Origin: Pseudomonas sp. ADAK13
GTDB taxonomy: Bacteria > Pseudomonadota > Gammaproteobacteria > Pseudomonadales > Pseudomonadaceae
NCBI RefSeq assembly: GCF_012935715.1
Contig: NZ_CP052860.1
Coordinates: 4,960,001-5,024,000 of the forward strand
Length of the DNA: 64,000 bases
Direction: 5' to 3'
The notes beneath the pieces were generated by a model. The model saw nothing but the letters and a program-made list of their open reading frames with translations, was not told the origin of the DNA and searched no databases. Position numbers and translations under genes: made by a program. Position 1 is the stretch's first letter. Each line of letters starts with the position of its first letter. This document shows positions 23,074-61,949 of the stretch, piece after piece.

Positions 23074-25128
23074 TCAGTCTTCGCGTTTCACCACCAACGT
23101 CAAGATGTCATAACTGGCCACCAACTCACCCAACTGGTTGGTCACCTCCACATCCCACGCCACCACGCCCTGGGGAATGCCTTGCGGGCTCTTCTTGCCC
23201 TGGTCAATCTTGCGTTTGCACGTCAGTCGCGCCTGGATGGTGTCGCCAATGCCCACCGGGTTGATAAAGCGCAGGGTGTCGAGCCCGTAGTTCGCCAATA
23301 CCGGGCCCGGCGCCGGGGACACAAACAGACCGGCCGCCGCCGACAGCACAAAATAACCGTGGGCGATGCGCTTGCCGAATTGCGATTCCTTGGCGGCGAT
23401 GTCGTCGAAGTGCATGTAGAAGTGGTCGCCCGACAGGCAGCCGAAGTTCACCAGGTCGGCCTCGGTGACGGTGCGGCGGTGGGTCAGCAGCGATTCGCCA
23501 ATCTGCAGGTCCTGGAAGAACCGGCGGAACGGGTGCACTTCGGTCTCGATGACCTTGGCACCGCGCACGTATTCGCCGGTGACCGCCGCCAGCATGGTCG
23601 GCGAGCCCTGGACCGCCGCGCGTTGCAGGTAGTGTTTCACTGCGCGCAGGCCGCCGAGCTCTTCGCCGCCACCGGCGCGGCCCGGGCCGCCGTGTTTGAG
23701 CTGGGGCAGGGGGGAGCCGTGACCGGTGGACTCGGCGGCGGATTCGCGGTCGAGCACCAGCAGGCGGCCGTGCCAGGCGGCTGCCACCGGGATGGCTTTG
23801 GCGGCAATCTGCGGGTCTTTGGTGATCAGGCTGGCGACGAGGCTGCCTTTGCCGCGTGCGGCCAGGGCGAGGGCTTCGTCCAGGTCGTCGTAGGCCATCA
23901 GGGTGCTGACCGGGCCGAAGGCCTCGATGTCGTGGGCGCCACCCTCAGCGTGCGGGTCGCGCGCTTGCAGCAGGGTCGGGGCGAAGAACGCGCCCTGGCT
24001 GACGTTTTCACCGCGCGGCTCAAACCCGTCGCGGGCGCCGAACAGCATGTCGCTGCTCTGCAACAGGCTTTCCAGGCGCTCGGCCACGTCTTTCTGTTGG
24101 TCGTGGGAGGCCAGCGCACCCATGCGCACGCCTTCCACCGACGGGTCGCCCACCACGACTTTTTTCAGGCGGTCCCGCAGGCGGGTGGCAACCGCATCGA
24201 TGTGTTTGGCCGGCACAATGGCGCGGCGAATGGCGGTGCATTTCTGCCCGGCCTTGGTGGTCATTTCCCGGGCGACTTCCTTGATGAACAGCTCGAACTC
24301 TTCGTCGTCCGGGGTGACGTCCGGGGCGAGGATCGCGCAGTTCAGCGAGTCGGCCTCGGCATTGAACGGCACCGAGTTACGGATCAGGTTCGGGTTGACC
24401 CGCAGTTTGGCCGCGGTGTCGGCGGAGCCGGTGAAGGTCACCACGTCCTGGCCTTGCAGGCGGTCGAGCAGGTCGCCGGTGCTGCCTATCACCAGTTGCA
24501 GGCTGCCCGGTGGCAGCAGGCCGGATTCGTCCATCAGGCGCACCACGGCTTCTGTCAGGTAGCTGGTGGCGCTGGCCGGCTTGACGATGCACGGCATGCC
24601 CGCCAGAAAGCTCGGGGCGAATTTTTCCAGCATGCCCCAGATCGGGAAGTTGAACGCGTTGATGTGCACCACCAGGCCGCCACGGGGCACCAGGATGTGG
24701 GTACCGGCAAAACTCCCCAGCTTGCTCAACTGCATTGCCGGGCCTTCGTGGACGATATTGCCCGATGGCAATTCCCGCGAGCCGAGGCTGGCGTAGGTGA
24801 ACAGCGTGCTGTTGCCGCCTTCGATATCGATCCAGCTGTCGGCGCGGGTCGCGCCGCTGTGGTGGGAGAGGGCGTAGAGCTGCTCTTTGCGCTCGCTCAG
24901 GTACAGGGCGATGGCCTTGAGGCGCTGGGCCCGTTGCTGGAAGTCCAGGGCCATCAGCCCGCTGACACCCTGGCGGCGCCCGTGCTCGATGGCTTCGGCG
25001 AAGTCCGGACGTTCTTCATGAGTGCGCGCCAGTTCGTGGCCTTCGATGGCGCTGCGCAGCACCTGGGCGCCGTGTTGGCCGATCCAGCGGCCAGCGATAA
25101 AACTTTGCAGGGTAGGGGCGTGAGGCAT
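23074..25128 (-). CDS. paaZ: Oxepin-CoA hydrolase / 3-oxo-5,6-dehydrosuberyl-CoA semialdehyde dehydrogenase PaaZ
   Basis: About 684 residues, the normal PaaZ length. Residues 1-510 are an aldehyde dehydrogenase domain (FNFPIWGMLEKFAPSFLAGMP, VTFTGSADTAAKLR, cysteine in TTKAGQKCTAIRRAIVP, GRAGGGEELGG). Residues 530-684 are a MaoC-like hydratase domain (LTHRRTVTEADLVNFGCLSGDHFYMHFDD, GKRIAHGYFVLS). The hydratase part opens the oxepin ring and the dehydrogenase part oxidises the resulting semialdehyde. ATG at 25128 has GGAGGA 7 nt upstream; a GTG codon directly precedes it. Last gene of the paaABCDE-DUF485-paaL-paaZ operon. Confidence 0.93.
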   Translation of the reverse strand: MPHAPTLQSFIAGRWIGQHGAQVLRSAIEGHELARTHEERPDFAEAIEHGRRQGVSGLMALDFQQRAQRLKAIALYLSERKEQLYALSHHSGATRADSWIDIEGGNSTLFTYASLGSRELPSGNIVHEGPAMQLSKLGSFAGTHILVPRGGLVVHINAFNFPIWGMLEKFAPSFLAGMPCIVKPASATSYLTEAVVRLMDESGLLPPGSLQLVIGSTGDLLDRLQGQDVVTFTGSADTAAKLRVNPNLIRNSVPFNAEADSLNCAILAPDVTPDDEEFELFIKEVAREMTTKAGQKCTAIRRAIVPAKHIDAVATRLRDRLKKVVVGDPSVEGVRMGALASHDQQKDVAERLESLLQSSDMLFGARDGFEPRGENVSQGAFFAPTLLQARDPHAEGGAHDIEAFGPVSTLMAYDDLDEALALAARGKGSLVASLITKDPQIAAKAIPVAAAWHGRLLVLDRESAAESTGHGSPLPQLKHGGPGRAGGGEELGGLRAVKHYLQRAAVQGSPTMLAAVTGEYVRGAKVIETEVHPFRRFFQDLQIGESLLTHRRTVTEADLVNFGCLSGDHFYMHFDDIAAKESQFGKRIAHGYFVLSAAAGLFVSPAPGPVLANYGLDTLRFINPVGIGDTIQARLTCKRKIDQGKKSPQGIPQGVVAWDVEVTNQLGELVASYDILTLVVKRED

Positions 25129-25157
25129 CACGATTCCTCCGGGTTGGATAAAGAGAG

Positions 25158-26804
25158 TTAGTGTTTGCTGGCGCCTGCGGCACCAATGCCGGTCATGGAG
25201 CGAATGAACTGCGCCAGGTAGCGGCCGCGCTCAATGGCGGCGCGGGGCGAACGGTCGGTGACGGAAAAGGCCCAGGCGCTGAAAAACGCCAGGCTCATGG
25301 AGAACAGGGCCGGGTTGGAGTACGGGAACAGCGCCTTGTCGTAATGCAGCACGTTGACCCACACCGCCGGGCTCAGCACCAGCAGCACGATGGCCGAGAC
25401 CAGCCCCGCCAGGCTGCCGGTCACCGCGCCACGGGTGGTCAGGCCCTTCCAGTACATCGAGAGGAACAGCACCGGGAAATTCACCGAGGCGGCGATTGCC
25501 AGTACCAGGCCCGACAGGAACGCAATGTTTTGCGACTCAAACAGCAGGCCGAGGATGATCGCCAACACGCCGATGCACAGCGTGGCGATGCGCGACACGC
25601 GGATTTCCTGCTGCTCGCTGGCCTGGCCCTTGCGGATCACACAGGCATACAGGTCGTGGGACACCGCCGATGCGCCGGACAATGCCAGCCCGGCCACCAC
25701 CGCCAGGATCGTCGCGAAGGCCACCGCCGAAATGAACCCGAGGAACAGGTTGCCACCCACGGCCTGGGCCAGGTGCACGGCGATCATGTTGCCGCCGCCG
25801 ATGATTGCGCCATTGGCATCGCGAAAGCCTGGATCGGTGCCCACCATGACGATGGCACCGAAGCCGACGATGATCAGCAGCAGGTAGAAGTAGCCAATGA
25901 AACCGGTGGCGTAGAACACGCTTTTGCGCGCTTCCTTGGCATCGCTGACGGTAAAGAAACGCATCAGGATATGCGGCAGCCCGGCGGTGCCGAACATCAT
26001 GCCAAGGCCCAGGGAAATCGCATCGATCGGGTTCGACAGCAAGCCGCCCGGCGCCATGATCGCGTTGCCCTTGGCATGCACGGCGGTGGCCCCGGCGAAC
26101 ATCGCTTCGGTGCTGAAACCAAAGTGCTTGAGCACCATGAACGCCATGAAGGTGGTGCCGAACAGCAGCATTACCGCCTTGATGATCTGCACCCAGGTGG
26201 TGGCGAGCATGCCGCCGAATGTCACGTAGAACACCATCAGCACGCCCACCAGCATTACCGCATACAGGTAGTCGATGCCGAACAGCAGCTCGATCAGCTT
26301 GCCGGCACCAACCATCTGCGCCACCAGGTACATCAGTGCCACGGTCAGGGTGCCGAAGGCCGAGGTCAGGCGCACCGGCGTTTGCTCCAGCCGGTAGGAC
26401 ACCACATCGGCAAAGGTGTATTTGCCCAGGTTGCGCAGGCGTTCGGCGATCAGGAACAGGATGATCGGCCAGCCGGCCAACACACCCAGGGCGTAGAGCA
26501 GACCGTCATAGCCGTTGAGGAACATCATCGCCGAGATGCCCAGGAATGACGCGGCGGAGATCATGTCGCCGGCGATCGCCAGGCCATTCTGGAAACCGCT
26601 CATGCCACCGCCGGCGGTGTAGAAGTCGCTGGCGGAGCGGGTGCGCAGGGCGGCCCAACGGGTGACGCCAAGGGTGAACAGCACGAACACCAGGAACATG
26701 CCGATGGCGTTCCAGTTCAATGGCCGGGACGCGCCATCGGCGGCCACCGCCAAGTCCGTGGCCAACGCCAAAGGCAGGAGAAACCACGCCACCAGCCGGC
26801 TCAT
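25158..26804 (-). CDS. paaL: Phenylacetate permease PaaL (sodium:solute symporter family)
   Basis: About 548 residues with a signal-like N-terminus ([10 protein letters not shown]) and 13 or so membrane helices of the SSS family. [44 protein letters not shown] is the conserved helix 1-2 region shared with the acetate permease ActP. The ActP-type proteins and a small DUF485 partner usually travel together, as here. Its place between the DUF485 gene and paaZ inside the paa operon marks it as the phenylacetate uptake system. ATG at 26804 overlaps the upstream stop as ATGA; an upstream GTG at 26813 abuts the ribosome site and is less likely. Confidence 0.87.
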
Positions 26805-27109
26805 GCTGCGCACTCCTGCTTGAGTTTGTCGTTCAGCGGGTCGATCACATGATTGGCGCGGTACACATAAAAGCCGGTCAGCGCGAACGCCAGCAGCACA
26901 ATCACCACACCCACCAACATGCCCACGGTGGTCACGCCGCCGCTCAACGACTGCCCGAGGGTGGCCGGGGAGAACGCCACCAGCAGCACGAAGCCGAAAT
27001 AGATCACCAGCATGATCAGCGACAGCGACCAGTACAGGTTCTGTTTGCGGCGTACCAACTGGATGAAGTCGGGATGTCGACGGATGCGTTCGATATCGTC
27101 GGGGGTCAT
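26801..27109 (-). CDS. DUF485 membrane protein, partner of the SSS permease
   Basis: 102 residues. [47 protein letters not shown] is the DUF485 (YjcH) signature, with two membrane helices (about residues 25-47 and 60-85). Such proteins accompany ActP/PaaL-type symporters, though their exact role is not established. ATG at 27109 is preferred (AAAGGAG 9 nt upstream); the open frame extends 15 codons further without a ribosome site. Translationally coupled to paaL. Confidence 0.85.
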
Positions 27110-27157
27110 GACGGTGTGCTCCTTTTTATTGTTGTGGTTGTGGTGTTGCGGCACGCG

Positions 27158-28234
27158 TTACAGCTGATCGAAATCCAGTACCACCTTGTCGCTGACCGGG
27201 AACGCCTGGCACGACAGCACATAGCCGGCGGCTACTTCGTAGTCTTCCAGGGCGTGGTTGCTGTCCATCTCCACTTCGCCTTCGATCACCTTGCATTTGC
27301 AGGTGGAGCACACACCGGCCTTGCACGAATACGGCAGCTCGGCGCCCTGGGCGTTGCCCGCGTCAAGAATGCTCTGGCTGTTGCGCGGCAGGTCGAAGGC
27401 CAGGGCGCGGCCATCGCTGATCACGGTGATCTGGCTGACCGCCGCATCCACTTGCCGCGCCGCTTCACGCGCCTCGCGTTTGTGCTGGCTGCCGGCGGCG
27501 GCGAACAGTTCGAAGTGAATGCGCTCGGGCGCCATGCCCTTGGCCTTGAGGCTGTCGCGCACGGTTTCGGTCATTTCCTGGGGGCCGCAGATAAAAGCCG
27601 CGTCGAGGGCTTTTACGTCGAGCCAGCGGGAGAACAGTTGCTCGCATTTGTCGGCGTTGATGCGGCCGTTGTAGAGGTCCACGTCCTGCTGTTCGCGGCT
27701 GAACACGAAGATCAGGTTCAGGCGCTGCAGGTAGCGGTTCTTCAGGTCTTCGAGCTGTTCGCGAAACAGCGCTCCCGAGCTGGAACGGTTGCCGTACAGC
27801 AGCGTCACGCGGCTATGGGGCTCGGTTTGCAGGGTGGTCTTGATGATCGACAGGATCGGCGTGATGCCGCTCCCGGCCGCAACCGCCAAGTAATTGCCAT
27901 GGCGCGCGGGATCAAGGTCCACATGGAAATGCCCGGCGGGCGGCATCACTTCCAGGCTGTGCCCGGCCTTGAGCTGCTCATTGGCAAACGCCGAGAACCG
28001 CCCACCGGCCACGCGCTTGATGGCGATGCGCAGTTCACCGTCATTGACCCCGGTGCAGATCGAATAGGAGCGGCGCACTTCCTCGCCATCCAGCCGGGTG
28101 CGCATCACCAGGTGCTGGCCCTGGGTGAAGTGGAAACTGTCTTGCAGGTGCTGCGGAATCTCGAAGGCGATGGACACCGCGTCACGGGTCTCGTTGCGCA
28201 CATCCTTGATGGTCAGGCTGTGAAATTTGCTCAT
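27158..28234 (-). CDS. paaE: 1,2-phenylacetyl-CoA epoxidase reductase PaaE
   Basis: 358 residues. An N-terminal ferredoxin-NADP reductase-type FAD/NADPH module (VRRSYSICTGVN for FAD; AAGSGITPILSIIKTTL and FICGPQEMTETVRDSL for NADPH) is followed by a C-terminal plant-type [2Fe-2S] ferredoxin (CKAGVCSTCKCKVIEGEVEM ... VLSCQAFPVSDKVVLDFD). It passes electrons from NADPH to the PaaABC di-iron epoxidase. Gene order and the FNR-then-ferredoxin layout are standard for PaaE. Confidence 0.93.
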   Translation of the reverse strand: MSKFHSLTIKDVRNETRDAVSIAFEIPQHLQDSFHFTQGQHLVMRTRLDGEEVRRSYSICTGVNDGELRIAIKRVAGGRFSAFANEQLKAGHSLEVMPPAGHFHVDLDPARHGNYLAVAAGSGITPILSIIKTTLQTEPHSRVTLLYGNRSSSGALFREQLEDLKNRYLQRLNLIFVFSREQQDVDLYNGRINADKCEQLFSRWLDVKALDAAFICGPQEMTETVRDSLKAKGMAPERIHFELFAAAGSQHKREAREAARQVDAAVSQITVISDGRALAFDLPRNSQSILDAGNAQGAELPYSCKAGVCSTCKCKVIEGEVEMDSNHALEDYEVAAGYVLSCQAFPVSDKVVLDFDQL

Positions 28235-28267: not shown

Positions 28268-28801
28268 TCAGATGCACTTGAAATAGTCGAACGGTTCGAG
28301 GCAGTCGCGGCAGCGGTGCAGCGCCTTGCAGGCGGTGGAGCCGAATTCGCTGAGCACTTCGGTGTGAAAGCTGCCGCATTGCGGGCAGGCAATCACCGGG
28401 CTTTCGCCGAGCAGGCTGCGCTTGCTGCTACTGCCTTGGGGCGGTGCGATGCCATAGGCCCGCAAGCGTTCGCGGCCACTGTGGGTGATCCAGTCGGTGG
28501 TCCAGGCCGGGGTCAACTTGCGTTCCAGTTGCGGCGCACGAAAACCCGCTTGCTCCAGGGCATCGCGGATATCGCCCTCGATCACCTCAGTGGCCGGGCA
28601 GCCGGAGTAGGTCGGCGTGACCACCACGTGCAGATGGCCGGCCTGCCAGTCCAGGTCGCGCACTATCCCCAGGTCGACCACGCTCACCACCGGCACTTCC
28701 GGGTCCATGACCTGGGCGAGGGTGGCCCACGCGGCGGCCAGGTCGGTGGGTTGCGCCGGCCGTGCGCCCTGGTCGCTGGCGATCAGCTCACCAGGTTGCA
28801 T
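28268..28801 (-). CDS. paaD: PaaD, phenylacetyl-CoA epoxidase accessory protein (iron-sulfur assembly)
   Basis: 177 residues. The N-terminal part is a DUF59/MIP18-like domain (AQVMDPEVPVVSVVDLGIVRDL ... VVVTPTYSGCPATEVIEGDI) linked to metallocluster assembly. The C-terminal part has a four-cysteine zinc-ribbon-like pattern (IACPQCGSFHTEVLSEFGSTACKALHRCRDCLEPFDYFKCI). It is needed for epoxidase maturation. ATG at 28801 lies 13 bases inside paaC, giving coupled translation; the open frame extends 23 codons further with no support. Confidence 0.9.
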   Translation of the reverse strand: MQPGELIASDQGARPAQPTDLAAAWATLAQVMDPEVPVVSVVDLGIVRDLDWQAGHLHVVVTPTYSGCPATEVIEGDIRDALEQAGFRAPQLERKLTPAWTTDWITHSGRERLRAYGIAPPQGSSSKRSLLGESPVIACPQCGSFHTEVLSEFGSTACKALHRCRDCLEPFDYFKCI

Positions 28802-29549
28802 CGGGGTACGCTCGGGGCAGGAATTGCATTTCCGCCAGCAAAATCCCCAGGTGCTCGCTGTGCAAACCACGGCGGGCGTCCAGGTAGAAGTAGCTCGCGG
28901 CAGGCGGCAGGGGCAGGGTGGCGCTGGTGAAGATCTCGCTGACCTTGGCCTGCCACGCTGCGCCGACCTGGGCGGCGTCCGGCGTGATGCCGGCGGCGTT
29001 CAGGCGCTGTTCACTGTCGTCGGCGCTGGTCAGTTCCACGGTAAAGCGCCACAGCTCGGGGATCGCCGCGAGCATGCGCGTGTGGCTTTCGTCGGTGCCG
29101 TCTCCCAGGCGCTCCACCCATTCGCCGGAGCGGCGCAGGTGATAGGTGACTTCCTTGACAGCCTTGGCGGCGATGCCGGCGATACGTTCGTCACTGGACT
29201 GGGCCAGGCCGCTCAACACCGGCAAGTGCCAGGCGTCATACAGGAATTGCTTGAGGATGGTCACCGCGTAGTCGCCGTTGGGTTGTTCCACCAGCAGCAG
29301 GTTGCGATAGGCGCGCTCGTCCCGGCGGAAGGCCAGGTGATCGGCGTCGCGCCCGTCGTCCAGCAACTCGGCGGCGTACTCCAGCCAATTGCGAGCCTGG
29401 CCCACCAGGTCGAGGCCGACGTTCATCAGCGCCAACTCTTCTTCCAGCGCCGGCGCGTGGCCACACCACTGGCACAGGCACTGGCCCTGGATCAGGGCGC
29501 TGTCGCCGAGGCGCAGCAGGTATTCGATCAGATCGGTTTCAGTGTTCAT
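28788..29549 (-). CDS. paaC: 1,2-phenylacetyl-CoA epoxidase subunit PaaC
   Basis: 253 residues, all-helical ferritin-like fold of the PaaA/PaaC family. It has LRLGDSALIQGQCLCQWCGHAPALEEELALMNVGLDLVGQARNWL and KEVTYHLRRSGEWVERLGDGTDESHTRM. PaaC is the structural, non-catalytic partner of PaaA in the epoxidase heterodimer. ATG at 29549 is preferred with GAGG 7 nt upstream; the codons before it overlap the paaB stop. Standard position between paaB and paaD. Confidence 0.92.
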   Translation of the reverse strand: MNTETDLIEYLLRLGDSALIQGQCLCQWCGHAPALEEELALMNVGLDLVGQARNWLEYAAELLDDGRDADHLAFRRDERAYRNLLLVEQPNGDYAVTILKQFLYDAWHLPVLSGLAQSSDERIAGIAAKAVKEVTYHLRRSGEWVERLGDGTDESHTRMLAAIPELWRFTVELTSADDSEQRLNAAGITPDAAQVGAAWQAKVSEIFTSATLPLPPAASYFYLDARRGLHSEHLGILLAEMQFLPRAYPDATW

Positions 29550-29557
29550 GGTCGACC

Positions 29558-29839
29558 TCACATGTGCCCGACTTCAGCCGGCAACTCGTAGAAGCTGGCG
29601 TGGCGGTAGACCTTGTCGTCGGCGGGGTCGAACAGTGGGTCTTTCTCGTCCGGCGACGAAGCGGTGATCAGCGCCGAAGGCACCACCCACAGGCTCACGC
29701 CTTCACTGCGTCGGGTGTACAACTCCCGGGCGTTTTCGATGGCCATGGTGGTGTCGGCGGCATGCACGCTGCCCACATGCTTGTGATTCAGGCCGTGCTT
29801 GCTGCGCACGAAAACTTCAAACAGGGTCCATTCAGACAT
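29558..29839 (-). CDS. paaB: 1,2-phenylacetyl-CoA epoxidase subunit PaaB
   Basis: 93 residues: SEWTLFEVFVRSKHGLNHKHVGSVHAADTTMAIENARELYTRR is diagnostic of PaaB, the small bridging subunit of the PaaABC epoxidase. The length is normal. It begins 27 bp after paaA. Confidence 0.93.
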   Translation of the reverse strand: MSEWTLFEVFVRSKHGLNHKHVGSVHAADTTMAIENARELYTRRSEGVSLWVVPSALITASSPDEKDPLFDPADDKVYRHASFYELPAEVGHM

Positions 29840-29866: not shown

Positions 29867-30856
<990 letters not shown>

Positions 30857-30903
30857 GGGGGGTCTCCCGCCTTGTGTTTTGTCGTAGGCATGGAGAACTT
30901 TAT

Positions 30904-30966
30904 AAGCGATACGGAAATTAATATCAAACACAAAATTTAGTGTCGGTATTTGGTTTTGTATCGCTT
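30904..30966. promoter_or_regulatory. paaA promoter with PaaX-type inverted GCGATAC sites
   Basis: AAGCGATAC (30904-30912) and its exact inverted copy GTATCGCTT (30958-30966) flank an AT-rich core of 45 bp. The distance of 48 bp from the paaA start suits a promoter overlapped by repressor sites. Related GYGATAC words recur in the paaG/paaY promoter. E. coli PaaX recognises TGATTC-containing boxes, so these are reasonable PaaX site candidates. Confidence 0.5.
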
Positions 30967-30976
30967 TGGGTGGGGG

Positions 30977-31800
30977 GTATATCCGTTTCTTCGGTAACGG
31001 CTTCCTATGGTTTCGCTCTTACAGCGACTCACTTTGGAAAAGCCCCAAAGTAAGCAAAGGGCTCTGCCCCGCCTGTCGGCACCTCGCCTAGGCTCGGTGT
31101 TCCCTCACTCCGGCATTGCTCCGCGGGCCGCCGCGACGGGGCGTCCCTGCCCCGTCGCGGCTAAACCGGCGTCCTGCCGGTTTACCCGCTCCTCAATCCC
31201 TGCGTTCGGCCTCGGGCTTATTGGGGCAGTCAGATCAAGATCAAAAGCAAGAGCACAGCGGCCTACAGGCCGGCTTGAGTGGTAGAAGCCAGAGCAAAAG
31301 CCAAAGCGAAAACCAAATCTGAAACGGATGCGGCTCTGCTTTTCTGTGGGAGCTGGCTTGCCTGCGATGCAGACACCTCGGTTTTTCAGATGCACCGAGG
31401 CGAGGCCATCGCAGGCAAGCCAGCTCCTACAGTTGGACCGTGCCCGCTGTAGATTTTGATCTTGATGTTGTCTTTGCTTCACACCACTCAAGCCGGCCTG
31501 TAGGCCGCTGTGCTGTTGATCTGCTGTTGATCTTGATCTTAGGCGCCCCGTTAAACCACGCTGGCCGAACGCAGGTAGTACGGAGCGGGTAAACCGGCAG
31601 GACGCCGGTTTAACCGCGACGGGGCAGGGACGCCCCGTCGCGGCGGCCCGCGGAGTAATGCCGGAGAGAGGGCACACCGAGCCTAGGCGAGGTGCCGAGT
31701 GGTGGGGCAAGAGCGTTTTGCTTACTTTTGCGCTGTTCAAAAGTGAGCCGCTGTAAGAGCGGAACCATAGGCGGCCATCACCCAGATAACGGATATGTAC
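30977..31800. repeat. Composite inverted-repeat element, copy A (about 824 bp)
   Basis: The two ends are inverted copies: GTATATCCGTT at the left and AACGGATATGTAC at the right. Both arms share, in opposite directions, CGCTCTTACAGCG, a CGGCACCTCGCCTAGGCTCGG block, a GGGGCGTCCCTGCCCCGTC hairpin, an ACCGG...CCGGT hairpin and a GGCCTACAGGCCGGCTTGAG block. The centre (31344-31430) is a twin REP hairpin with GTGGGAGCTGGCTTGCC. The same element recurs at 42495-44952 (interrupted) and 61956-62782. No believable protein is encoded. It fills the gap between the paaA promoter and the paaK terminator. Confidence 0.85.
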
Positions 31801-31814
31801 ACCACCCAAACGAG

Positions 31815-31842
31815 CAAAAAAAAGCCCCGCAAAGGCGGGGCT
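31815..31842 (-). terminator. Rho-independent terminator of paaGIJK
   Basis: On the minus strand an 8-bp stem AGCCCCGC / GCGGGGCT with a 4-nt loop is followed by eight T residues, about 15 bp after the paaK stop. A textbook intrinsic terminator. Confidence 0.9.
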
Positions 31843-52184: not shown

Positions 52185-52275
52185 CTGTGGTGCTTGTCCC
52201 CCTTTGGGGTGCGAAGCGCACCCAAGAGAGTGGGCCTGCTGCGCAGGCCAACGGGAGCAAGCTCCCTCGCCACAG
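52185..52275. repeat. REP palindrome between iacE and iacF
   Basis: CTGTGG at the left pairs with CCACAG at the right around inner palindromes; the right end GGGAGCAAGCTCCCTCGCC matches the palindrome at 39378-39475. Confidence 0.6.
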
Positions 52276-52315
52276 GAATAGCGTTCAACCGAAACAACTG
52301 TATTCAGGTGCTGCA

Positions 52316-53326: not shown

Positions 53327-54247
53327 ATGATGAGTTCAACGGTGCAACGTAACGAATCGTTCGAGCGTTGGTTACATCAGGTCAATCAGGCCTGTGGACG
53401 CTTCGATGCCCGTGCCCTGGGCACGGACTTCTATGGCGAATTGAGCGAGTTCCGCAGCGGCGCGATCAAGCTCAGTGTGGTCGACATGGCCCATGTGCAC
53501 CTGTATCGCAGCAGCAAGGAAGTCAGCACCGGCAACGAGGGGCACTACTACGCGGTGTTCCAGTTGCAGGGCAGCGCGCAACTGGAGCAGGGCGACAACC
53601 GGGCGCAACTGGGCTGCGGCGACATCGCCCTGATCGACGCCTGCCGTCCCAGCGACATGACCTACCACGACAACGCCCGGCAACTGTCGCTGATCCTGCC
53701 GCGCCAGGTGGTGGAGCGTGGTTCGCACTTCAACGCCGTCAACTGCGCGACGCGGATCTCGGCCCACACGCCGTTGGCGGTAATGGCCCGCCAGATGGTG
53801 CTCGACGCCCGCCAGCAAAACGACCTGGGCATGCAGGAAAGCGAAGCGGTGCTGGACGCGCTGGTGAGCCTGTTGCTGCCGGGGATCAGCGCCCGGGACA
53901 ACGGCGTGGACACCCAGGAACGGCAGTTTCGCAAAACCATCGCCTACATCGACGCGCACATCGGTGCCGAAGAACTCTGCCCCGAGCTGATCGCCCGGGA
54001 AGTCGGGGTGTCGGTGCGCGGGCTGTACCGGATGTTCTCCAAGCGCGGGCTGGTGGTGGCGCAATACATCAAGCACCGGCGCCTGGATTTCTGCGCCGAA
54101 ACCCTGCGCCATTCGCCGGCGGAGCAGAAGCTCTCGGCGCTGTGTTATGCCTGGGGCTTCTCCGATTCCAGCTACTTCTCATCGGCGTTCAAGTCGCGCT
54201 TCGGCGTGTCGCCGGGGGAGTACCGCAAGCGCTATAGCCATCATTGA
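53327..54247 (+). CDS. AraC-family activator, FeaR paralogue of the iac cluster
   Basis: 306 residues, built like the feaR product at 37758 and visibly the same in over half of all positions. It shares the start MMSS, QVNQACG-FDAR, the QLSLILP segment, the EELCPELIAREVGVSVRGLYRMFSKRGLVVAQYIKHRRLDFCAE helix-turn-helix and the WGFSDSSYFSSAFKSRFGVSPGEYRK C-terminus. It lies 60 bp after iacF on the same strand. The usual MarR-type IacR of other iac clusters is not present, so this protein and the histidine kinase/response regulator pair are the local regulators. Ligand unknown; indole-3-acetaldehyde or indole-3-acetate would fit the context. Confidence 0.83.
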   Translation: MMSSTVQRNESFERWLHQVNQACGRFDARALGTDFYGELSEFRSGAIKLSVVDMAHVHLYRSSKEVSTGNEGHYYAVFQLQGSAQLEQGDNRAQLGCGDIALIDACRPSDMTYHDNARQLSLILPRQVVERGSHFNAVNCATRISAHTPLAVMARQMVLDARQQNDLGMQESEAVLDALVSLLLPGISARDNGVDTQERQFRKTIAYIDAHIGAEELCPELIAREVGVSVRGLYRMFSKRGLVVAQYIKHRRLDFCAETLRHSPAEQKLSALCYAWGFSDSSYFSSAFKSRFGVSPGEYRKRYSHH

Positions 54248-54280: not shown

Positions 54281-54834
54281 CTGTGGGAGCCGGGCTTGCC
54301 CGCGATGCAGGCCACTCGGTCTGACAGGCACACCGCCGCGATCCCATCGCAGCCTCGCTAAAGCTCGACAGCTCCCACATTGGAATGAGGTCAACTGTGG
54401 GAGCTGGCTTGCCTGCGATGCAGGCCACTCGATACCCCAGGTACACCGCAGCGATCCCTTCGCAGCCTCGCCAAGGCTCGACAGCTCCCACATTGGAATG
54501 AGGTCAACTGTGGGAGCTGGCTTGCCTGCGATGCAGACCACTCGATACCCCAGGCTCACGGCCGCGATCCCTTCGCAGCCTCGCTAAAGCTCGACAGCTT
54601 CCACATTGGAATGAGGTCAACTGTGGGAGCTGGCTTGCCTGCGATGCAGGCCACTCGATACCCCAGGCACACCGCAGCGATCCCTTCGCAGCCTCGCTAA
54701 AGCTCGACAGCTCCCACATTGGAATGAGGTCAACTGTGGGAGCGGGCTTGCCTGCGATGCAGGCCACTCGATACCCCAGGTACACCGCAGCGATCCCTTC
54801 GCAGCCTCGCCAAGGCTCGACAGCTCCCACATTC
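54281..54834. repeat. Five tandem 113-bp REP-doublet units
   Basis: Units start with CTGTGGGAGC at 54281, 54395, 54508, 54621 and 54734, a period of 113-114 bp. Each contains GGCTTGCC(T/C)GCGATGCAGG, then CACTCG, then CGATCCC(T/A)TCGCAGCCTCGC and ends CTCGACAGCT(T/C)CCACATTGGAATGAGGTCAA. Each unit has one outer stem formed by GTGGGAGCTG and CAGCTCCCAC. The variation among units is a few bases only. It occupies the whole gap between the AraC gene and the response-regulator stop. No gene is seen. Confidence 0.85.
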
Positions 54835-54846: not shown

Positions 54847-55452
54847 CTACGGATACAACACCTCACGGACCAGCATGGCAATGCTGGTCACGCCCATCTT
54901 TTCCTTGATCTTGGTGCGGTGCACGTCAACGGTCTTCACGCTGATGTTCAGCTCGCGGGCAATCACTTTGCTCGCCTTGCCATCCACCACCAGCATCAAC
55001 ACTTCCCGCTCCCGGCTCGTCAGCAGCGCCAGCTTGCCTTGCAGGTGCTCGCGCTGTTCCTGGTCGGCCTGGGTCTGTACGGCGGTCTTCAGCGCGGCCT
55101 GGATACGGTCGATCATCTGTTGCGGGTTATAGGGCTTCTCGACGAAGTCCAGCGCGCCGTTTTTCATCGCGGTGACCGACATCGGGATGTCGCCGTGGGC
55201 CGACACGAAGATCGTCGGCAAGGTGCTTCCGCGCCGGTTGAGGATCTCCTGCAACTGGAAGCCGCTGGTCTGCGGCATGCGCACATCCAGCACCAGGCAC
55301 GCGGGCTGGCGCGGGTCGTAGTGTTCGAGGAACTCTTCGGCCCCGGCGAAGCATTGCGCCTTTACGCTGACTGACTCCAGCAGCCAGGCCAGTGAGGTAC
55401 GCAGGTCTTTGTCGTCATCAACGATGTAAACGATCGGTGTGCGATTTTCCAT
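54847..55452 (-). CDS. FixJ/NarL-type response regulator (IacR1-like)
   Basis: 201 residues. Receiver domain with D12-D14 acidic pocket and phospho-acceptor D56 (LVLDVRMPQTSG), K105 region (FVEKPYNPQQM), then a LuxR-type helix-turn-helix (LLTSREREVLMLVVDGKASKVIARELNISVKTVDVHRTKIKEKMGV). Its partner is probably the PAS kinase at 44962, which is 9 kb away at the other end of the iac genes. Promoter motif ACTAGGTGGTTTCTTTA precedes it and recurs before iacA. Homologous LuxR-type regulators and kinases control iac genes in other bacteria. Confidence 0.85.
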   Translation of the reverse strand: MENRTPIVYIVDDDKDLRTSLAWLLESVSVKAQCFAGAEEFLEHYDPRQPACLVLDVRMPQTSGFQLQEILNRRGSTLPTIFVSAHGDIPMSVTAMKNGALDFVEKPYNPQQMIDRIQAALKTAVQTQADQEQREHLQGKLALLTSREREVLMLVVDGKASKVIARELNISVKTVDVHRTKIKEKMGVTSIAMLVREVLYP

Positions 55453-55569
55453 CAGGGACTGCCACGAGAATTTCTAATTATTGTTTTCGCACGCAGGCAC
55501 GCAGCGGCGGACATTGGCTCATCCAGGGAACCTTGCAAGCAGAATACCCAGTGTGAACGGCCCTGACGA

Positions 55570-55627
55570 TAAAGAAACCACCTAGTCGGCATGGGGATCG
55601 TCTGAATGGTCGCGCCCCACGGGGCGC
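55570..55627. promoter_or_regulatory. Divergent promoter of the response regulator and iacG
   Basis: The minus-strand motif ACTAGGTGGTTTCTTTA (55570-55586) points towards the regulator gene and matches the iacA promoter motif. A palindrome GCGCCCC-AC-GGGGCGC follows at 55612-55627, 45 bp before iacG, related to the GGGGCG-GCA-CGCCCC in the iacA promoter. Confidence 0.5.
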
Positions 55628-55671: not shown

Positions 55672-56184
55672 ATGGCCGACCTGAGCCAGCAGCAAATCGA
55701 CTTTCGCAACGCCATGGCGCAACTGCCGGCCGCGGTGAACATCATCACCACCAACGGCCCGGGCGGGCGTTGTGGGATCACGGCGAGTGCCGTGTGTTCG
55801 GTGACGGATTCGCCGCCCACGGTGTTGGTGTGCGTGAACCGAGGCAGCGCGACCCATGATGTGCTCCGCACCAATGGGCAGTTGTGCGTGAACGTGCTGT
55901 GCGGCGAGCAGGAAGAGCTGGCGCGGCATTTTGCCGGGATGACCCAGGTGCCCATGGCGGAACGGTTTGCCTGGGACCTGTGGGACGGCGGCGAGGCAGG
56001 CGTGCCGGTGCTGCGGGATGCGCTGGTGCAACTGGAAGGGCGGATCAGTGAATGCAAGGAAGTGGGCTCGCATTCGGTGATGTTCGTGGAGTTGTCGCGG
56101 GTCGGGGTGCGGGGGCAGGGCGACAGCCTGGTGTACTTCAATCGGCTGTTTCACCGGATTGAACATGCTGGCGCCCATTGCTGA
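55672..56184 (+). CDS. iacG: Flavin reductase IacG
   Basis: 170 residues of the HpaC/flavin reductase family: FRNAMAQLPAAVNIITTNGPGGRCGITASAVCSVTDSPPTVLVCVNRGSATHDVLRTNGQLCVNVL. It reduces FMN or FAD with NADH for the monooxygenase IacA. It is separated from the other iac genes by the regulators and the tandem repeat, and reads in the same direction. It ends at a palindrome pair. Confidence 0.83.
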   Translation: MADLSQQQIDFRNAMAQLPAAVNIITTNGPGGRCGITASAVCSVTDSPPTVLVCVNRGSATHDVLRTNGQLCVNVLCGEQEELARHFAGMTQVPMAERFAWDLWDGGEAGVPVLRDALVQLEGRISECKEVGSHSVMFVELSRVGVRGQGDSLVYFNRLFHRIEHAGAHC

Positions 56185-56311: not shown

Positions 56312-58453
56312 TCAAATCCGAAAGCTGCCCACCAGCTGATTCAATCGTTGCGCCTCCCGCTCAAGCTCGGTACAGGCCTGCAGCGTCGACTGCAGGTTTT
56401 CCACCCCGGCCTGGTTCAGCATATTGATTTCGGTAATGTCCACATTCAACGCTTCCACCACCGACGTCTGCTCCTCGGTCGCCGCCGCCACCGACTGGTT
56501 GACGTTATCAATCTCGCCAATGCGCAACGTCACACTGGCCAGCCGCGTGCCCGCCAGGTTGGCAATGCTGACGCTTTCCTCACTGTGCTGTTGGCTCTCG
56601 GTCATGGTGCTGACGGATTCCCGGGCGCCCACTTGCAGCTCTTCGATCATCTGCTGAATTTCCAGCGCCGATTCCTGGGTGCGATAGGCCAGGCTGCGCA
56701 CCTCATCGGCCACCACCGCAAACCCGCGTCCGGCTTCACCGGCCCGTGCGGCTTCAATGGCGGCGTTCAGCGCCAGCAAGTTGGTCTGTTGGGAGATACC
56801 CTTGATCACTTCGAGGATCTGCCCGATGTTCACCGTCTTGTGATTCAGCGCATCGATATGCACGCACGAGGCACTGATCTTGCCCGACAGTTCATTCATC
56901 ACCGCAATCGTGCGCTCCACCACCTGGCGCCCGTCCTCGGCCTGGTGTCGGGCGCCGGAGGCTTGTTGCGAGGCGTCGGAAGCATTGCGGGCGATTTCCT
57001 GGGCGGCGGCGCCCAGCTCATTGATCGCCGCCGCGACGCTGTTGGTGCGGGTGGCCTGTTCGTCGAAGTTGTTCAGCGAGGAGTTCGACGCCAACAACAC
57101 GCGCTTGACCACCTGGTTGACCCCAAGCCCTGCCGACGACACTTCGCGGATCGACTGGTGGATGCGTTCGACAAAGCGGTTGAACGCACTGGCGAGTTGG
57201 CCGATCTCATCCCGGGACTGCACCTCCAGCCGCCGCGTCAGGTCGCCTTCGCCCCGGGAAATATCTTCCATCACCCGGGTCAGGGTTTGCAGCGGGCGGG
57301 TAATGCGCAAGGCCGCGTACCAGATCAACAACAAGCCGAGCAGGGCCGAGCCGCCGCCCAGCAGCAGTTCCAGGGCGGTGCTTTTTACCCCTTGGGCGTC
57401 CAGTTGCTGTTGCAGAGCGGTGACCGGTGCCAACAGCACCGACTGCGGCACGCCCACCAGCACGCCCCACGGCGCAGCACCGGCGATCGGTGCCAGTGGC
57501 TCAAGCAGTTTGATCTGTTGTTGATCGATAAAGGTGTGTGGCTGCCCCTGGCGCAGCGCGTCGAGTATTTGGGCACCGTCCGGCATCACGGTGCTGATTG
57601 GCTGCCCCAGGTGGCTGGCATCCTCGCTGTAGGCGGAAACAACCCCCTTGGGGCTGACGATGCTGACTTGCCCGTGGCCGTCGAACAGTTGCCCGGCGCT
57701 GGTTTGGCTGGCCTGCTGCAAGGCCGCCAGGTTGATGTCCAGCCCGACCACCGCAATCACCTTGCCGTGTTCCATCAGCGGGAACGCAATGCTGGTCACC
57801 AACTTGCGGCTGCCGGACGCCTCGTCGAAATACGGCTCCAGCACACAAGCTTTGGCGGTGTCGCGGGCGCAGGTGTAGAAGGCGTTGTACGGCGCGCCGC
57901 TGGGGCCGGGAGAGGTATTGGCCAACAGCGCTTCGTCGCCGACCACCGCCGTCAGCTCGCCCGGTGTGGCCTGGACCCAGTACTGGGCGAAACGCCCGGC
58001 TTCGTTACTGCCCACGGCCGCCTGGCCGATGAACTGTGCATCGTCGCCGTCCAGGGCGTTGGCTTCAAAAATGACATAAATCCCGAGCAGGTCGGGCTTG
58101 TCGATCAGGGCCTGGTGCAGTTGGGTATTCAGCTCCTGGCGCAGTTGCGGGCGGGTCAGCTTGCCCTGCTGTTGCAGTTGCCGCAGGTACCGCACATAGC
58201 GCGACAAGCCCTGGCCGTATTCGTGGGTTTGCATAAAGGTGCGTTGCACTTGCATGGCTTGCACTTGCCCCAGGGCCTGCATGTGTTCCCTGGCGGCGGC
58301 GGCGAGCATTTCGCTGCTGGCCTGAGCCACGTGCTGGCTGCTCTGGTGGGTCTGGTACAGCGACAGGCTCATCAGCAAGCCGACTACCAACAACAGGCAG
58401 AGGCCGGCGAGCAGGGCGATCTTGCTCTGGATCGTGAGGAATTTCTTGTGCAT
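56312..58453 (-). CDS. Methyl-accepting chemotaxis protein with periplasmic dCache-type sensor
   Basis: 713 residues. Transmembrane helix near residues 12-32, a long periplasmic double-Cache sensor region (about 35-340; [59 protein letters not shown]), a second helix (about 363-383), a HAMP domain and a signalling domain with the conserved hairpin tip [49 protein letters not shown]. The start at 58453 ([11 protein letters not shown]) fits a normal N-terminus; the frame upstream is not supported. No CheR-docking pentapeptide at the end. It may sense a compound degraded by the surrounding genes, but the ligand cannot be read from the sequence. Confidence 0.88.
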
Positions 58454-58506
58454 GGCGAAGGCCTTGGCCAGGCGGGGCGATGGCGGCGCCACCGCCCCGG
58501 CCGGGC

Positions 58507-59829
58507 TTAGAAGTTAGTGGCGAACACCACTTGGCTGTAGAGGTTTTTATCGTGGTTGCCCAGCTGCGTGCCGCCCTGGTCGGCGCTCTTGTCCGGCTGG
58601 TACAGGCCAATCAGCGGCATCACCGTCAGGTGTTCGTTGACGTGCCATTCGGCATACAGGTCCAGCTCGTGGCCGTCGTTGTTGCCGAGGTTGCGGTCGA
58701 TGGTCTTGAAGTCGAACAGCACCGCACCGACGCTGAGGTTTTCCAGGGGCGAGACCTTGAACGTGACGTTCTGGATGCGTGAATTGTTGTTGAACGGCCC
58801 GGCGTAGTTGCCCGCCACTTCACCCTGGAACCAGGTGCCATAACCACGGCTGAAGCCGTAGAACAGTGGGTCGAAACCTTCCGAGAAACGGCTGTAGCGG
58901 TAGCTCACATACGGCGTCCAGGTCACGTCGGCAAAGGTCCAGCCGGCTTCCAGGTACCAGGCGTCTTCGTTGCCGGTGTGGGGTTTGTCCTGCCAGGCGT
59001 ACTCGCCGGACAGGAACAGGTTGGTCACCCCGGCATTGCCCGTGGCCCGCAGGCTGTAGGTCTTCATGCCGTCACGCTCCAGCTGGGTGGGGGAGGCGTA
59101 CTGCTTGTCGACATCGGTGGTGTCGATGTAGGTCAGCCCCACGGTGCCTTCGGTGGCCACGTGTTCGAGGGTGGCGACGTACATTTCGGTCTTGGCCTGG
59201 GCGCGATTATCGGACTTGAGCCACATCAGGTCGCTGCGCCAGCCTTCCTTGCCGCCGAGGCGCAACACGGCGGTTTCGTCGAAGGCTTTGCGGGCAGCGA
59301 TGTAGTAGCCGCCGCCGCGATTGAGATCACCATCGGCCACGCCCTTGCCGAAGTTCAAGGCGTCGCCGTCGATCAGGAAGCCGTCGCCGACCACAATGTT
59401 CTGGCGGCCGAAGGACAGGTCTACGCCATTCTCGCCCAGGGCCTCAAACAGCTTGCCCGAGCGCCAGCCGAGGTAGGCGTCTTCGAATTGGGTGGTGTGC
59501 TCCGAACCGTCGCTGAAGCCGGCAGCGTCGCCGTCGCCCCAGGTGCCGGAGCTCAGCAGGTTGGCCGCGCCGTAGGTGGTGCCGGCGCCGCTGAAGCTCT
59601 TGTCGAAGCTCAGGCCGTACTTGACGTAGCCCTCGCGCCAGGACGAGGAACCTTTGACCAGGCGGCCGGAGGGGGCGTAGTTCTGCTGGCTGTGGAAGGC
59701 ACCGAATACCGCCTCCAGGGTGGCGTTCAGGTGACTGCTGTCATCGGCGTACAACTCATAAGCGCCGGCCTGGTTGGCGCCGATCATCAGCGCGAGGGTC
59801 GAGAGACGAAGCAAGGGGGACTTGAGCAT
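58507..59829 (-). CDS. Outer-membrane beta-barrel porin-like protein (alginate-export-type)
   Basis: 440 residues. Signal peptide [23 protein letters not shown] with cleavage before YELYADD. The mature chain shows alternating aromatic/polar strands and ends VVFATNF, with the C-terminal phenylalanine needed for barrel assembly. [41 protein letters not shown] resembles alginate-export (AlgE-like) barrels. It could provide entry for an aromatic amine, arylacetate or related acid. GGATG lies 8 nt before the ATG; the frame upstream to 60252 is antisense to the cytochrome gene. Exact family uncertain. Confidence 0.75.
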
Positions 59830-59940
59830 GGTGTGGCATCCATTCTTGTTCATGACCACAGGGTTGGGGTCTGCCGCGATACTAATGCTGGCGAAGTGAC
59901 GTGCCTTTTGTCTGGTTGCCAAAGACTTGACTGTGCTTGC

Positions 59941-59962
59941 CAGAATCCATGGTTTGGCAGCC
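59941..59962 (+). promoter_or_regulatory. FeaR-site candidates upstream of the cytochrome c/aldehyde dehydrogenase genes
   Basis: The 226-bp gap between the porin-like gene and the cytochrome gene contains CAGAATCCA (59941-59949) and TTGGCAGCC (59954-59962), words also found in the aauB promoter (there on the minus strand). Further TGGCA/TGCCA words surround them. Binding by FeaR or its paralogue is a hypothesis. Confidence 0.3.
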
Positions 59963-60055
59963 CCGCCAACACAACTGGCACGCAGGGCAAAACCCGAGCG
60001 ACCTTGAGCCCTGACAATCGTCGGCAACTTCGATGGTTTCCAAGGTCGCTTTTCT

Positions 60056-60445
60056 ATGTTCACTGCACACAGATTGTCCCTGGCCGGCGTGTTGTCGCTG
60101 GTCCTCGCCCACAACGCCTTTGCCGCTGAATGCGGCCCTGTCCAGAGCCGTGGCGCCCAGGTGTTCGCCAACGAATGCAGCGTGTGCCACGCGGTCACCC
60201 AGGGCGGCGCGACGATGATGGGGCCAAACCTGGCCGGCGTGTACGGGCGCAAATCCGGCTCCCTGGCAGGCTTCAGCTATTCCCAGGCGATGCGTGACAA
60301 AAACGTCGAGTGGCAAGCCGAAACCATCGCGCAATTCATCACCCAACCCCAGGCGTTTGTGCCCGGCACCTACATGCCCTACATGGGCCTGGCTTCGGCC
60401 GACGATCGCCAAGCGGTCGCCTGCTTTCTCAAAGAACAACAGTGA
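60056..60445 (+). CDS. Small class I c-type cytochrome
   Basis: 129 residues. Signal peptide about 1-23 (ending NAFA), haem motif CSVCH (41-45 by count from the ATG), and the axial methionine in GTYMPYMGL. Sequences like GPNLAGVYGRKSGSLAGFSYSQAM are typical of cytochrome c2/c550. It lies 13 bp before the aldehyde dehydrogenase gene and likely shares its transcript. It is a plausible electron acceptor for the periplasmic amine dehydrogenase, supplementing the cytochrome at 38835. Confidence 0.82.
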   Translation: MFTAHRLSLAGVLSLVLAHNAFAAECGPVQSRGAQVFANECSVCHAVTQGGATMMGPNLAGVYGRKSGSLAGFSYSQAMRDKNVEWQAETIAQFITQPQAFVPGTYMPYMGLASADDRQAVACFLKEQQ

Positions 60446-60458
60446 ATACAGGTGAATC

Positions 60459-61949
60459 ATGAACAACGTTGAAATCCTGCCGCAGGTGGCTGCATTCCTC
60501 GACCGTCGTCATGGCTGCTTTATCGATGGCCGGTGGGTGTTTGCCGAAGGCGAGCACATCAAGGTGGTCAACCCGGCCACCGGGCAAACCCTGTGCGAAA
60601 CCCTGGACGCGCCGCTGCACGTGGTGGAGCAGGCGGTGCAGTCATCCCATGCGGCGTTCAAGTCCCGCGTGTGGTCGGGTTTGCGCCCGGCTGACCGCGA
60701 GCGGATCCTGCTCAACTTCACCGCGTTGGTAGAGGCCCATGCCGAAGAGCTGGCGCAGCTGGAAACCTTGAGCCAGGGCAAGTCGATCAACCTGGCGCGG
60801 GGGCTGGACTTGAACGCCACCGTGGAGTTCATGCGCTACATGTCGGGTTGGGCCACCAAGATCGAAGGACAGACCTTTGACGTGTCGATCCCGTTGCCGC
60901 CGGGGGCCAGGTTCACTGCGTTTACCAAGCGCGAGCCGGTGGGCGTGGTGGTGGGCATCGTGCCGTGGAATTTCCCGCTGCTGATTGCGGCCTGGAAATT
61001 GATGCCGGCCCTGGCCACCGGGTGCACGGTGATCATCAAGCCGGCGATGGAAACACCGCTGACGGCCATGCGCCTGGCTGAGCTGGCGCTGGAAGCGGGG
61101 ATTCCGGCGGGGGTGTTCAACGTGGTCACCGGTGGTGGTGCGTCGGTGGGTGGGGTGCTGACGGCGCATCCGCTGGTGAGCAAGGTGTCGTTTACCGGCT
61201 CGACTGCGGTGGGCAAGAGCGTGGGTGTGGCGTGCATGGAGAACATGACGCGGTTTGCCCTGGAATTGGGGGGCAAGAATCCGATGATCGTGTTGGCGGA
61301 TGCGGACATTGATAAGGCGATCCAGGGGGCGATCCTGGGTGGGTTGCTGAACAACGGGCAGGTGTGTGCGGCGGCTTCGCGCTTCTATGTGCATCGTTCG
61401 GTGTATGACCGGTTTGTCGAGGGGTTGGCGGCGGCGGTGTCGGCGATGCCGTTGGGGGCCGGGATGGATGGTGAGGCGGCGATTAATCCATTGGTGTCGC
61501 GCAAGCAGCAGCAGGGCGTACTGCGCCATATCGAGCAGGCTCGGGCTGAAGGGGCGCGGGTGGTGATCGGTGGGGATGAGGTCGTGGGTGAGGGGTTTTA
61601 TGTGCGGCCGACGATTTTGGCGGATATCGATCATGGGATGGCGGTGGCCCGGGAGGAGGTGTTTGGGCCGGTGTTGGGGGTGATGGCGTTTGACGATGAG
61701 GATGCGGTGATTGCTTTGGCCAACGACAATCGTTATGGGTTGGCGGCGAGCCTTTGGACCAATGATCTGGGTAAGGCGATGAACCTGGTGCCGCGGATCG
61801 AGGCGGGGACGGTTTGGGTGAATGCGCATGTGCTGCTGGACCCGGCGATGCCGTTTGGCGGGGTGAAGCAGTCGGGGATGGGGAGGGAGTTTGGGCGGGC
61901 GGTGATTGAGGCTTATACCGAGTTGAAGTCGGTGTGTATTGCGCATTGA
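60459..61949 (+). CDS. Arylacetaldehyde dehydrogenase (FeaB/phenylacetaldehyde dehydrogenase type)
   Basis: 496 residues of the aldehyde dehydrogenase superfamily. Catalytic E269 in FALELGGKNP and C303 in NNGQVCAAASR, cofactor segment GIVPWNFPLLIAAWKLMPALATGCTVIIKPAMETP and SFTGSTAVGKSV. It belongs to the phenylacetaldehyde dehydrogenase type that acts after amine dehydrogenases. It would oxidise phenylacetaldehyde and indole-3-acetaldehyde to the acids consumed by paa and iac. The 3' third (from about 61150) has an unusual excess of G over C on the coding strand, with many GTG, GGG and TTG codons. Confidence 0.85.
   Translation: MNNVEILPQVAAFLDRRHGCFIDGRWVFAEGEHIKVVNPATGQTLCETLDAPLHVVEQAVQSSHAAFKSRVWSGLRPADRERILLNFTALVEAHAEELAQLETLSQGKSINLARGLDLNATVEFMRYMSGWATKIEGQTFDVSIPLPPGARFTAFTKREPVGVVVGIVPWNFPLLIAAWKLMPALATGCTVIIKPAMETPLTAMRLAELALEAGIPAGVFNVVTGGGASVGGVLTAHPLVSKVSFTGSTAVGKSVGVACMENMTRFALELGGKNPMIVLADADIDKAIQGAILGGLLNNGQVCAAASRFYVHRSVYDRFVEGLAAAVSAMPLGAGMDGEAAINPLVSRKQQQGVLRHIEQARAEGARVVIGGDEVVGEGFYVRPTILADIDHGMAVAREEVFGPVLGVMAFDDEDAVIALANDNRYGLAASLWTNDLGKAMNLVPRIEAGTVWVNAHVLLDPAMPFGGVKQSGMGREFGRAVIEAYTELKSVCIAH

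Follow-up and report, generated by a model that had tools for sequence, protein, structure and literature searches.

What joins genes for amine oxidation to the two acid pathways that lie on either side of them? The question is raised by a 64,000-nucleotide (nt) stretch of the Pseudomonas sp. ADAK13 chromosome, here called the window, in which positions 23074-61949 hold an amine dehydrogenase operon (aau), genes of the phenylacetate (paa) and indole-3-acetate (iac) pathways, and a gene for an aldehyde dehydrogenase (ALDH). The original prediction listed these genes in order and took them to suggest a unit for degrading phenethylamine, tryptamine and plant auxin. We assigned gene identities with curated family models (NCBIfam, Pfam), solved-structure matches and codon-position composition. 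The predicted order was borne out by the family searches and by codon-position composition, with three amendments: an IS3-family insertion lies between aauB and the histidine kinase gene, the porin open reading frame (ORF) had been over-extended, and the cluster lacks paaF and paaH. The observation of an amine/paa/iac gene cluster is confirmed, and its interpretation as linked amine-to-acid degradation genes is supported.

Our reading, which we hold to be highly probable, is that an upper pathway from amines to acids is docked here to two acid pathways, each under its own control. The amines would be aromatic, most likely 2-phenethylamine and tryptamine, and would undergo oxidation in the periplasm by AauBA, a tryptophan tryptophylquinone (TTQ) dehydrogenase matured by AauE and AauD, and the electrons would pass to small cytochromes c. 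The linked ALDH would then oxidize phenylacetaldehyde and indole-3-acetaldehyde, with phenylacetate entering the paa pathway and indole-3-acetate the iac pathway. From their neighbourhood, the porin may be an amine or acid channel and the chemoreceptor an attractant sensor.

Linkage of aau and iac genes in Pseudomonas and beyond

We surveyed 398 genomes of the window's genus, Pseudomonas. AauB was found in 58 of them at E 1e-20, and the 47 with at least 57% identity were used; 13 matches at 34-37% identity were dropped (in 11 genomes without a close match and 2 with one). IacA was found in 81 genomes (E 1e-120) and PaaA in 103. iacA was present in 44 of the 47 aau genomes (Fisher p 2e-32, a value that ignores relatedness), and the two genes lay within 25 kb of each other in 31 of the 33 genomes that had both on one contig, the exceptions being G049 (146 kb) and G027 (164 kb). 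The aau-iac linkage is far above chance. A gene-order survey had been named beforehand as the test that could refute the association, and the association was found.

The partners of aau recur in more than one form. Among the 31 close pairs, 26 have an IacA at least 74% identical to that of the window, and all 28 sampled genomes with this IacA type carry aau. The other five pairs have a diverged IacA (54-58%); gene-order maps place aau next to this iac type in G248, G369, G113, G265 and G245, with IacC at 61-64% and IacA at 53-57% in four genomes and 55% in G248. A close ALDH was found in 41 genomes, 38 of which have aau (38/47 aau genomes), and lay within 30 kb of aau in 25 of 28 same-contig pairs. 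paaA was present in 43 of the 47 aau genomes, in 19 cases on the aau contig and in 11 of those no more than 25 kb away. At 76 named AauB loci with flanks of up to 10 kb, iac genes were seen at 41, paa genes at 16, at least one of the two at 55 and both at 2. Both iacA and paaA lay within 25 kb of aau in five genomes: four of the window clade and P. marincola (G042). The P. marincola locus, whose AauB is 68% identical, holds a paa-FeaR-ALDH-aau-porin-kinase-iac set, and the arrangement in P. segetis is similar.

The linkage also extends to a plasmid. In Novosphingobium aromaticivorans, plasmid pNL2 carries iacG, E, B, A and I, an ALDH gene, an AraC-family regulator gene, iacD, C and H, a cytochrome gene, aauBEDA and catechol genes in one stretch. 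It is like the window in joining iac, ALDH, an AraC-family regulator and aauBEDA. It is unlike the window in that the aau-iac stretch gave no match for iacF, FeaR or the tandem TG[GT]CA box described below, a TonB receptor gene stands beside aau, and catechol genes adjoin; no paa-annotated gene lies in the stretch 455000-487268. By inference, the aau, ALDH, iac (no iacF found) and cat genes of pNL2 make up a nearly complete set for the route from tryptamine to beta-ketoadipate. A plasmid origin for the window's own aau copy was considered and rejected, as all 29 plasmid AauB matches fell below 60% identity, the best among the matches listed being 39.1%.

Could these simply be unrelated catabolic genes that came to share one region by chance or inheritance, with no functional coupling? 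Of the five genomes that bring the three modules together within 25 kb, four are close sisters, and other species have the modules apart (paa is ~2 Mb from aau in G383), as that explanation would allow. The same partners, however, reunite in different orders, in different orientations, with different iac types and, on a plasmid, across a class boundary, and the amine-arm genes carry a common promoter box in different arrangements. Chance clustering as such was ruled out by the 398-genome survey, and we regard adjacency without coupling as extremely improbable.

Promoter boxes and probable control of the three arms

We counted promoter elements over distinct promoters, taking TGGCA-N16-TGGCA (21-bp spacing) as the FeaR-type box. 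Three such tandem boxes mark the amine arm of the window: one before aauB (42440-42479, minus strand, with TGGCA repeats at 42452-42477), one before the porin gene (59917-59942, minus) and one before the cytochrome c and ALDH genes (59955-59980, plus). The exact box was present in 80/88 aauB, 26/31 porin and 18/19 cytochrome-ALDH promoters, and directly before ALDH in 3/21. It was found at none of the iacA (0/51), kinase (0/48), iacG (0/10), response regulator (0/9), FeaR1 (0/28), FeaR2 (0/56), chemoreceptor (0/12), paaA (0/11), paaG (0/16) or paaY (0/16) promoters. Allowing one mismatch brought aauB to 86/88 and gave 26 porin, 19 cytochrome-ALDH, one kinase and one paaG promoter. Random 360-nt segments cut from these loci, real boxes included, gave 51/4000 exact matches and 131/4000 with one mismatch. 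Alternative spacings (N12-15, N17-20) were rare, except for N15 at aauB (12/88).

The candidate regulators are two AraC-family proteins, FeaR1 (37758-38672, plus; NF007243 355 bits, cut-off 199; 45% identical to Escherichia coli FeaR) and FeaR2 (53327-54247, plus; 362.7 bits with the same model and cut-off; 43%). The two share 58% identity, and their DNA-binding segments align closely with that of E. coli FeaR. The tynA and feaB promoters of E. coli MG1655 show the same spacing, with TGGCA-N16-TGGCA at the former and TGTCA-N16-TGTCA at the latter. The FeaR consensus is reportedly TGNCA-N8-AAA, with which the boxes agree. A FeaR-type activator would turn on the aau operon, the porin gene and the cytochrome-ALDH pair through the tandem boxes.

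A different element stands at the iac genes. The box CTAGGGGATTTCTTTAG occurs before iacA (46178-46194, plus), and a diverged copy precedes the response regulator gene (55569-55585, minus). With up to three mismatches, it was found at 45/51 iacA and 8/9 response regulator promoters and, on the other strand, in 8/10 of the regions shared by the response regulator gene and iacG. No aauB, porin or cytochrome-ALDH promoter contained it, and it lay on the opposite strand in 2/48 kinase promoters. The likely controllers of iac, acting through this box, are a histidine kinase with a PAS-like N-terminus (44962-46086, minus; PF02518 above its cut-off, PF00512 and PF13426 below theirs) and a LuxR/FixJ-type response regulator (54847-55452, minus; PF00072, PF00196), which would form a two-component pair that turns on iac. 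PaaX, judged by its family, is assumed to control paa. With a FeaR box on one arm, a distinct box on the second and a PaaX repressor for the third, the amine arm, the iac arm and paa look separately controlled. This points to several modules joined together and not to a single unit of regulation.

The separate iac box also bears on what flows through the locus. The TTQ enzyme might act mainly on phenethylamine or tyramine and feed paa, with iac serving for auxin itself, and the proximity of aau and iac would then reflect a shared ecology rather than tryptamine flux. Separate control of iac would fit, and a paa link is a known one, E. coli feaR, feaB and tynA adjoining paaZ. Against this, aau is within 25 kb of iac more commonly (31/33 same-contig pairs) than of paa (11/19), and on pNL2 it lies with iac and catechol genes in a stretch without paa-annotated genes. 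We consider this division of labour unlikely.

The dehydrogenase, its partners and the acid pathways

The aau operon is a single gene run on the minus strand that joins the two subunit genes with MauE- and MauD-like maturation genes: aauB, the heavy chain (41199-42356); aauE (40647-41186; PF07291); aauD (40023-40643; TIGR02661 208.7 bits, cut-off 188.6); aauA, the light chain and TTQ subunit (39482-40003); and, last, a gene for a monohaem c-type cytochrome (38835-39356; one CxxCH, no Pfam match). This small cytochrome has 86 distinct orthologues, at least 95% of which keep the CxxCH motif. In an alignment with the Alcaligenes faecalis light chain and two mauA light chains, AauA keeps both TTQ tryptophans, the catalytic aspartate and the cysteine pattern, residues whose roles we take to be those of other TTQ light chains. 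No MauG gene lies beside aau. A whole-genome search gave one CCP/MauG-family match, a 329-aa protein encoded at 0.856 Mb, with aau at 5.00 Mb; we did not take this protein as MauG.

Is the enzyme an aromatic amine dehydrogenase (AADH) or a methylamine dehydrogenase (MADH)? The light chain is 56% identical over 118 residues to the A. faecalis AADH light chain versus 45-47% over 182 to MADH (168 bits versus 159 for the best MADH), and it carries DGFLCSCCGG and WIGTC, segments of the AADH type, rather than the MADH versions. By sequence, AauA is closer to AADH than to MADH. The heavy chain gives less guidance: its best solved structure is an AADH (170 bits; best MADH 137 bits), yet it is about as far from MauB (30-31% identity) as from A. 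faecalis AADH (31%), and its placement between the two classes is undecided in a tree where long branches meet; the substrate class is thus not settled by the sequence. A methylamine or other aliphatic-amine dehydrogenase would suit a heavy chain equally distant from both classes, although such an enzyme is at odds with the AADH-type segments of the light chain, with partner genes that belong to aromatic pathways, and with the lack of a MauG-family gene beside aau, whereas mauF and mauG are part of the mau cluster of Paracoccus. We judge it very improbable.

The aldehyde step is assigned to the product of the gene at 60459-61949 (plus), an ALDH of the phenylacetaldehyde dehydrogenase type. It shares 52.5% identity with E. 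coli FeaB, and its best solved-structure match is a phenylacetaldehyde dehydrogenase (4o5h, 539.6 bits); against the NCBIfam StyD model it scored 655 bits, under the cut-off of 850. A cytochrome c gene with a CSVCH motif (60056-60445, plus) precedes it. Before this pair lie genes for an outer-membrane porin-like protein of 440 aa (58507-59829, minus; an Alginate_exp match below cut-off with the long ORF), whose start is likely at 59829 and whose ORF as first called was too long, and for a chemoreceptor with a PDC-type sensor (56312-58492, minus; PF00015, PF00672, PF22673).

The iac set is complete by domain content and order, which is also how we assigned its names, no curated iac model having matched. 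On the plus strand lie iacA (46298-47446; PF08028 and its place in the conserved gene order), iacB (47464-47835; a 123-aa reading frame with a 50% homologue on pNL2), iacI (47839-48309; SnoaL-like, PF13577), iacH (47916-49433; amidase family, PF01425 from residue 147, the 5' end probably over-extended), iacC (49458-50741; Rieske oxygenase alpha, PF00355 and PF00848), iacD (50717-51229; oxygenase beta, PF00866), iacE (51438-52178; short-chain dehydrogenase, PF13561), iacF (52142-53266; ferredoxin/reductase, PF00111) and, apart from these, iacG (55672-56184; flavin reductase, PF01613). An iac pathway of this kind would be expected to convert indole-3-acetate to catechol.

The paa genes begin, on the minus strand, with paaZ, for an oxepin-CoA hydrolase/semialdehyde dehydrogenase (23074-25131; TIGR02278 989.7 bits, cut-off 562.8). 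They continue with an ActP-like sodium/solute symporter gene predicted as paaL (25158-26813; NF009135 1032 bits, cut-off 850), a small ORF predicted as DUF485 (26801-27154; no NCBIfam match at 1e-40), paaE (27158-28234; TIGR02160 481 bits, cut-off 420.8), paaD (28268-28870; PF23451 and PF01883), paaC (28788-29561; TIGR02158 266.7 bits, cut-off 133.35), paaB (29558-29839; PF06243) and paaA (29867-30931; TIGR02156 555.7 bits, cut-off 280). Beyond a gap, still on the minus strand, are paaK for phenylacetate-CoA ligase (31858-33243; TIGR02155 726.5 bits, cut-off 646.3), the thiolase gene paaJ (33285-34559; TIGR02430 727 bits, cut-off 597), paaI (34489-35070; TIGR02286 154.5 bits, cut-off 118.9, from residue 69, the ORF 5' end probably over-extended) and paaG (34952-35767; TIGR02280 428 bits, cut-off 345). 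On the plus strand, paaY (36106-36696; TIGR02287 342 bits, cut-off 319.6) and the repressor gene paaX (36758-37681; TIGR02277 336 bits, cut-off 264.6) complete the set.

Judging from its gene content, the cluster does not hold a whole paa lower pathway. Neither paaF nor paaH, which in relatives flank paaG, is present there. The best matches in the same genome (PaaF 51% and 49%, PaaH 40%) are all elsewhere on the chromosome; genes for an enoyl-CoA hydratase and a 3-hydroxyacyl-CoA dehydrogenase lie together at 4.325 Mb, adjoining a CoA-transferase gene. A close PaaH (E 1e-200) was found in 91 of the 398 genomes, every one of which has PaaA, and was lacking in 12 of the 103 PaaA genomes, including all five of the window clade (AauB at least 97%: G000, G048, G059, G261 and G339). 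Gene maps of the last three show paaG without paaF or paaH alongside. Phenylacetate may thus not be fully degraded by the cluster alone.

Besides this gap and the ambiguous heavy chain, several observations weigh against the reading of the locus as an upper pathway docked to paa and iac. The linkage has its failures: three of the 47 aau genomes are without iacA at E 1e-120, nine lack a close ALDH, and of the 16 aau genomes with a diverged IacA only, five have it within 25 kb, one at 146 kb and ten on another contig. At the thresholds used and with flanks of up to 10 kb, 13 of the 76 AauB loci showed no scored partner. We read six distant TTQ loci on plasmids, leaving out two mauB loci. Those other than pNL2 (L122, L123, L126, L129 and L130) showed no iac genes over the 13-33 kb that were read, an ALDH match being present in four of the five, and the tandem box was beside aau in none of the six. 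The exact box is also absent from 8/88 aauB promoters, four of them from diverged-iac genomes, and an earlier count, which had a slicing fault, found a box in the 350 nt preceding paaD in 2/12. Across the genome the FeaR pattern has 11 matches, versus 8 for a reversed-pattern control. Three of the 11 are the aauB, porin and cytochrome-ALDH promoters of the window, and the one opened among the eight outside it (L137) lies inside a coding sequence. The box is thus not enriched genome-wide, and its weight comes from position and conservation, with the compared promoters drawn from related species.

Repeats, insertions and known relatives of the locus

An 830-bp palindromic non-coding repeat has three copies in the window, at 30960-31815 (the gap between paaA and paaK), 42484-44964 and 61958-62778, two of which flank the iac block. 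The genome holds at least 40 copies including the query, the others 90-95% identical (40 of 432 candidates scored). Among the copies listed, 10/10 are in minus orientation before 1.25 Mb, 18/19 are plus at 2.0-5.45 Mb, 9/10 are minus at 5.75-7.02 Mb and one is plus at 7.24 Mb; orientation switches by arc, as if tracking replication direction. Matches to the Rfam family TwoAYGGAY, just above threshold, at 42626-42728 and 62104-62166 fall in the arms of the repeat and are probably not functional riboswitch-type elements. A separate 113-bp unit is repeated 4.9 times in tandem at 54281-54833, between the FeaR2 and response regulator genes; parts of this unit also match other places in the genome.

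The repeat copy between aauB and the kinase gene is split by the IS3-family element (ends ~42805 and 44448, inverted; minus strand; transposase 43057-43920; PF00665; ~75% to ISPsy31). The element lies ~330 nt upstream of the aauB box, which is intact. In the window the kinase match ends ~2.6 kb before aauB; both genes can be seen at 42 of the 76 named loci, where the median distance is 315 nt. A gene for an extracytoplasmic function sigma factor at 62901-63410 borders the cluster, as it does in three sister genomes. The idea of a mobile island drew no support from the tRNA search (none in the window), from G+C content (0.58-0.65 in 2-kb steps) or from the right flank with its sigma factor gene; genes at 1-18 kb of the window lay outside the annotation, and no integrase search was made.

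The component enzyme systems are all known, and the E. coli tyn/fea/paa genes are the nearest precedent for amine, aldehyde and paa steps together. There, tynA-feaB-feaR beside paa resembles the window in its FeaR activator, phenylacetaldehyde dehydrogenase, box spacing and neighbouring paaZ. It differs in having a copper amine oxidase and a TGTCA box at feaB; the window has a TTQ dehydrogenase, iac, a porin, a chemoreceptor and two FeaR copies. The aau genes of A. faecalis share the order aauB-E-D-A followed by a small cytochrome c, without an adjoining MauG, whereas the heavy chain is 31% identical and the window aau is joined to FeaR, paa and iac. The iac genes reported for Pseudomonas putida 1290 and Paraburkholderia phytofirmans have the same iacA-I set by domain content; the window differs in its order iacABIHCDEF, in an iacG set apart by the response regulator gene and in the linkage to aau. 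The P. putida pea genes likewise form a phenethylamine upper pathway into paa, with a quinohaemoprotein amine dehydrogenase, an enzyme of another class. A junction of aau with iac is not known to have been described.

Bacterial iac genes are usually treated as auxin-degradation genes. Their repeated link to a tryptamine-type amine dehydrogenase, under control that looks distinct yet adjacent, suggests another reason to keep them, and Pseudomonas species with aau and iac are predicted to grow on tryptamine. A bolder version, which we offer tentatively and would sooner bet against than for, is that iac serves these pseudomonads mainly as the lower half of tryptamine catabolism, with auxin degradation largely a by-product of aromatic-amine scavenging because the close IacA type occurred only with aau in the sample; that the two FeaR paralogues divide phenethylamine and tryptamine sensing; and that TTQ is made without MauG, possibly by the operon's monohaem cytochrome. 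The conserved FeaR-type boxes allow candidate regulon members to be listed by sequence, and the fact that one clade has lost both paaF and paaH makes for a clear metabolic prediction. An aau operon with a conserved cytochrome may likewise make TTQ maturation without a neighbouring mauG an approachable question.

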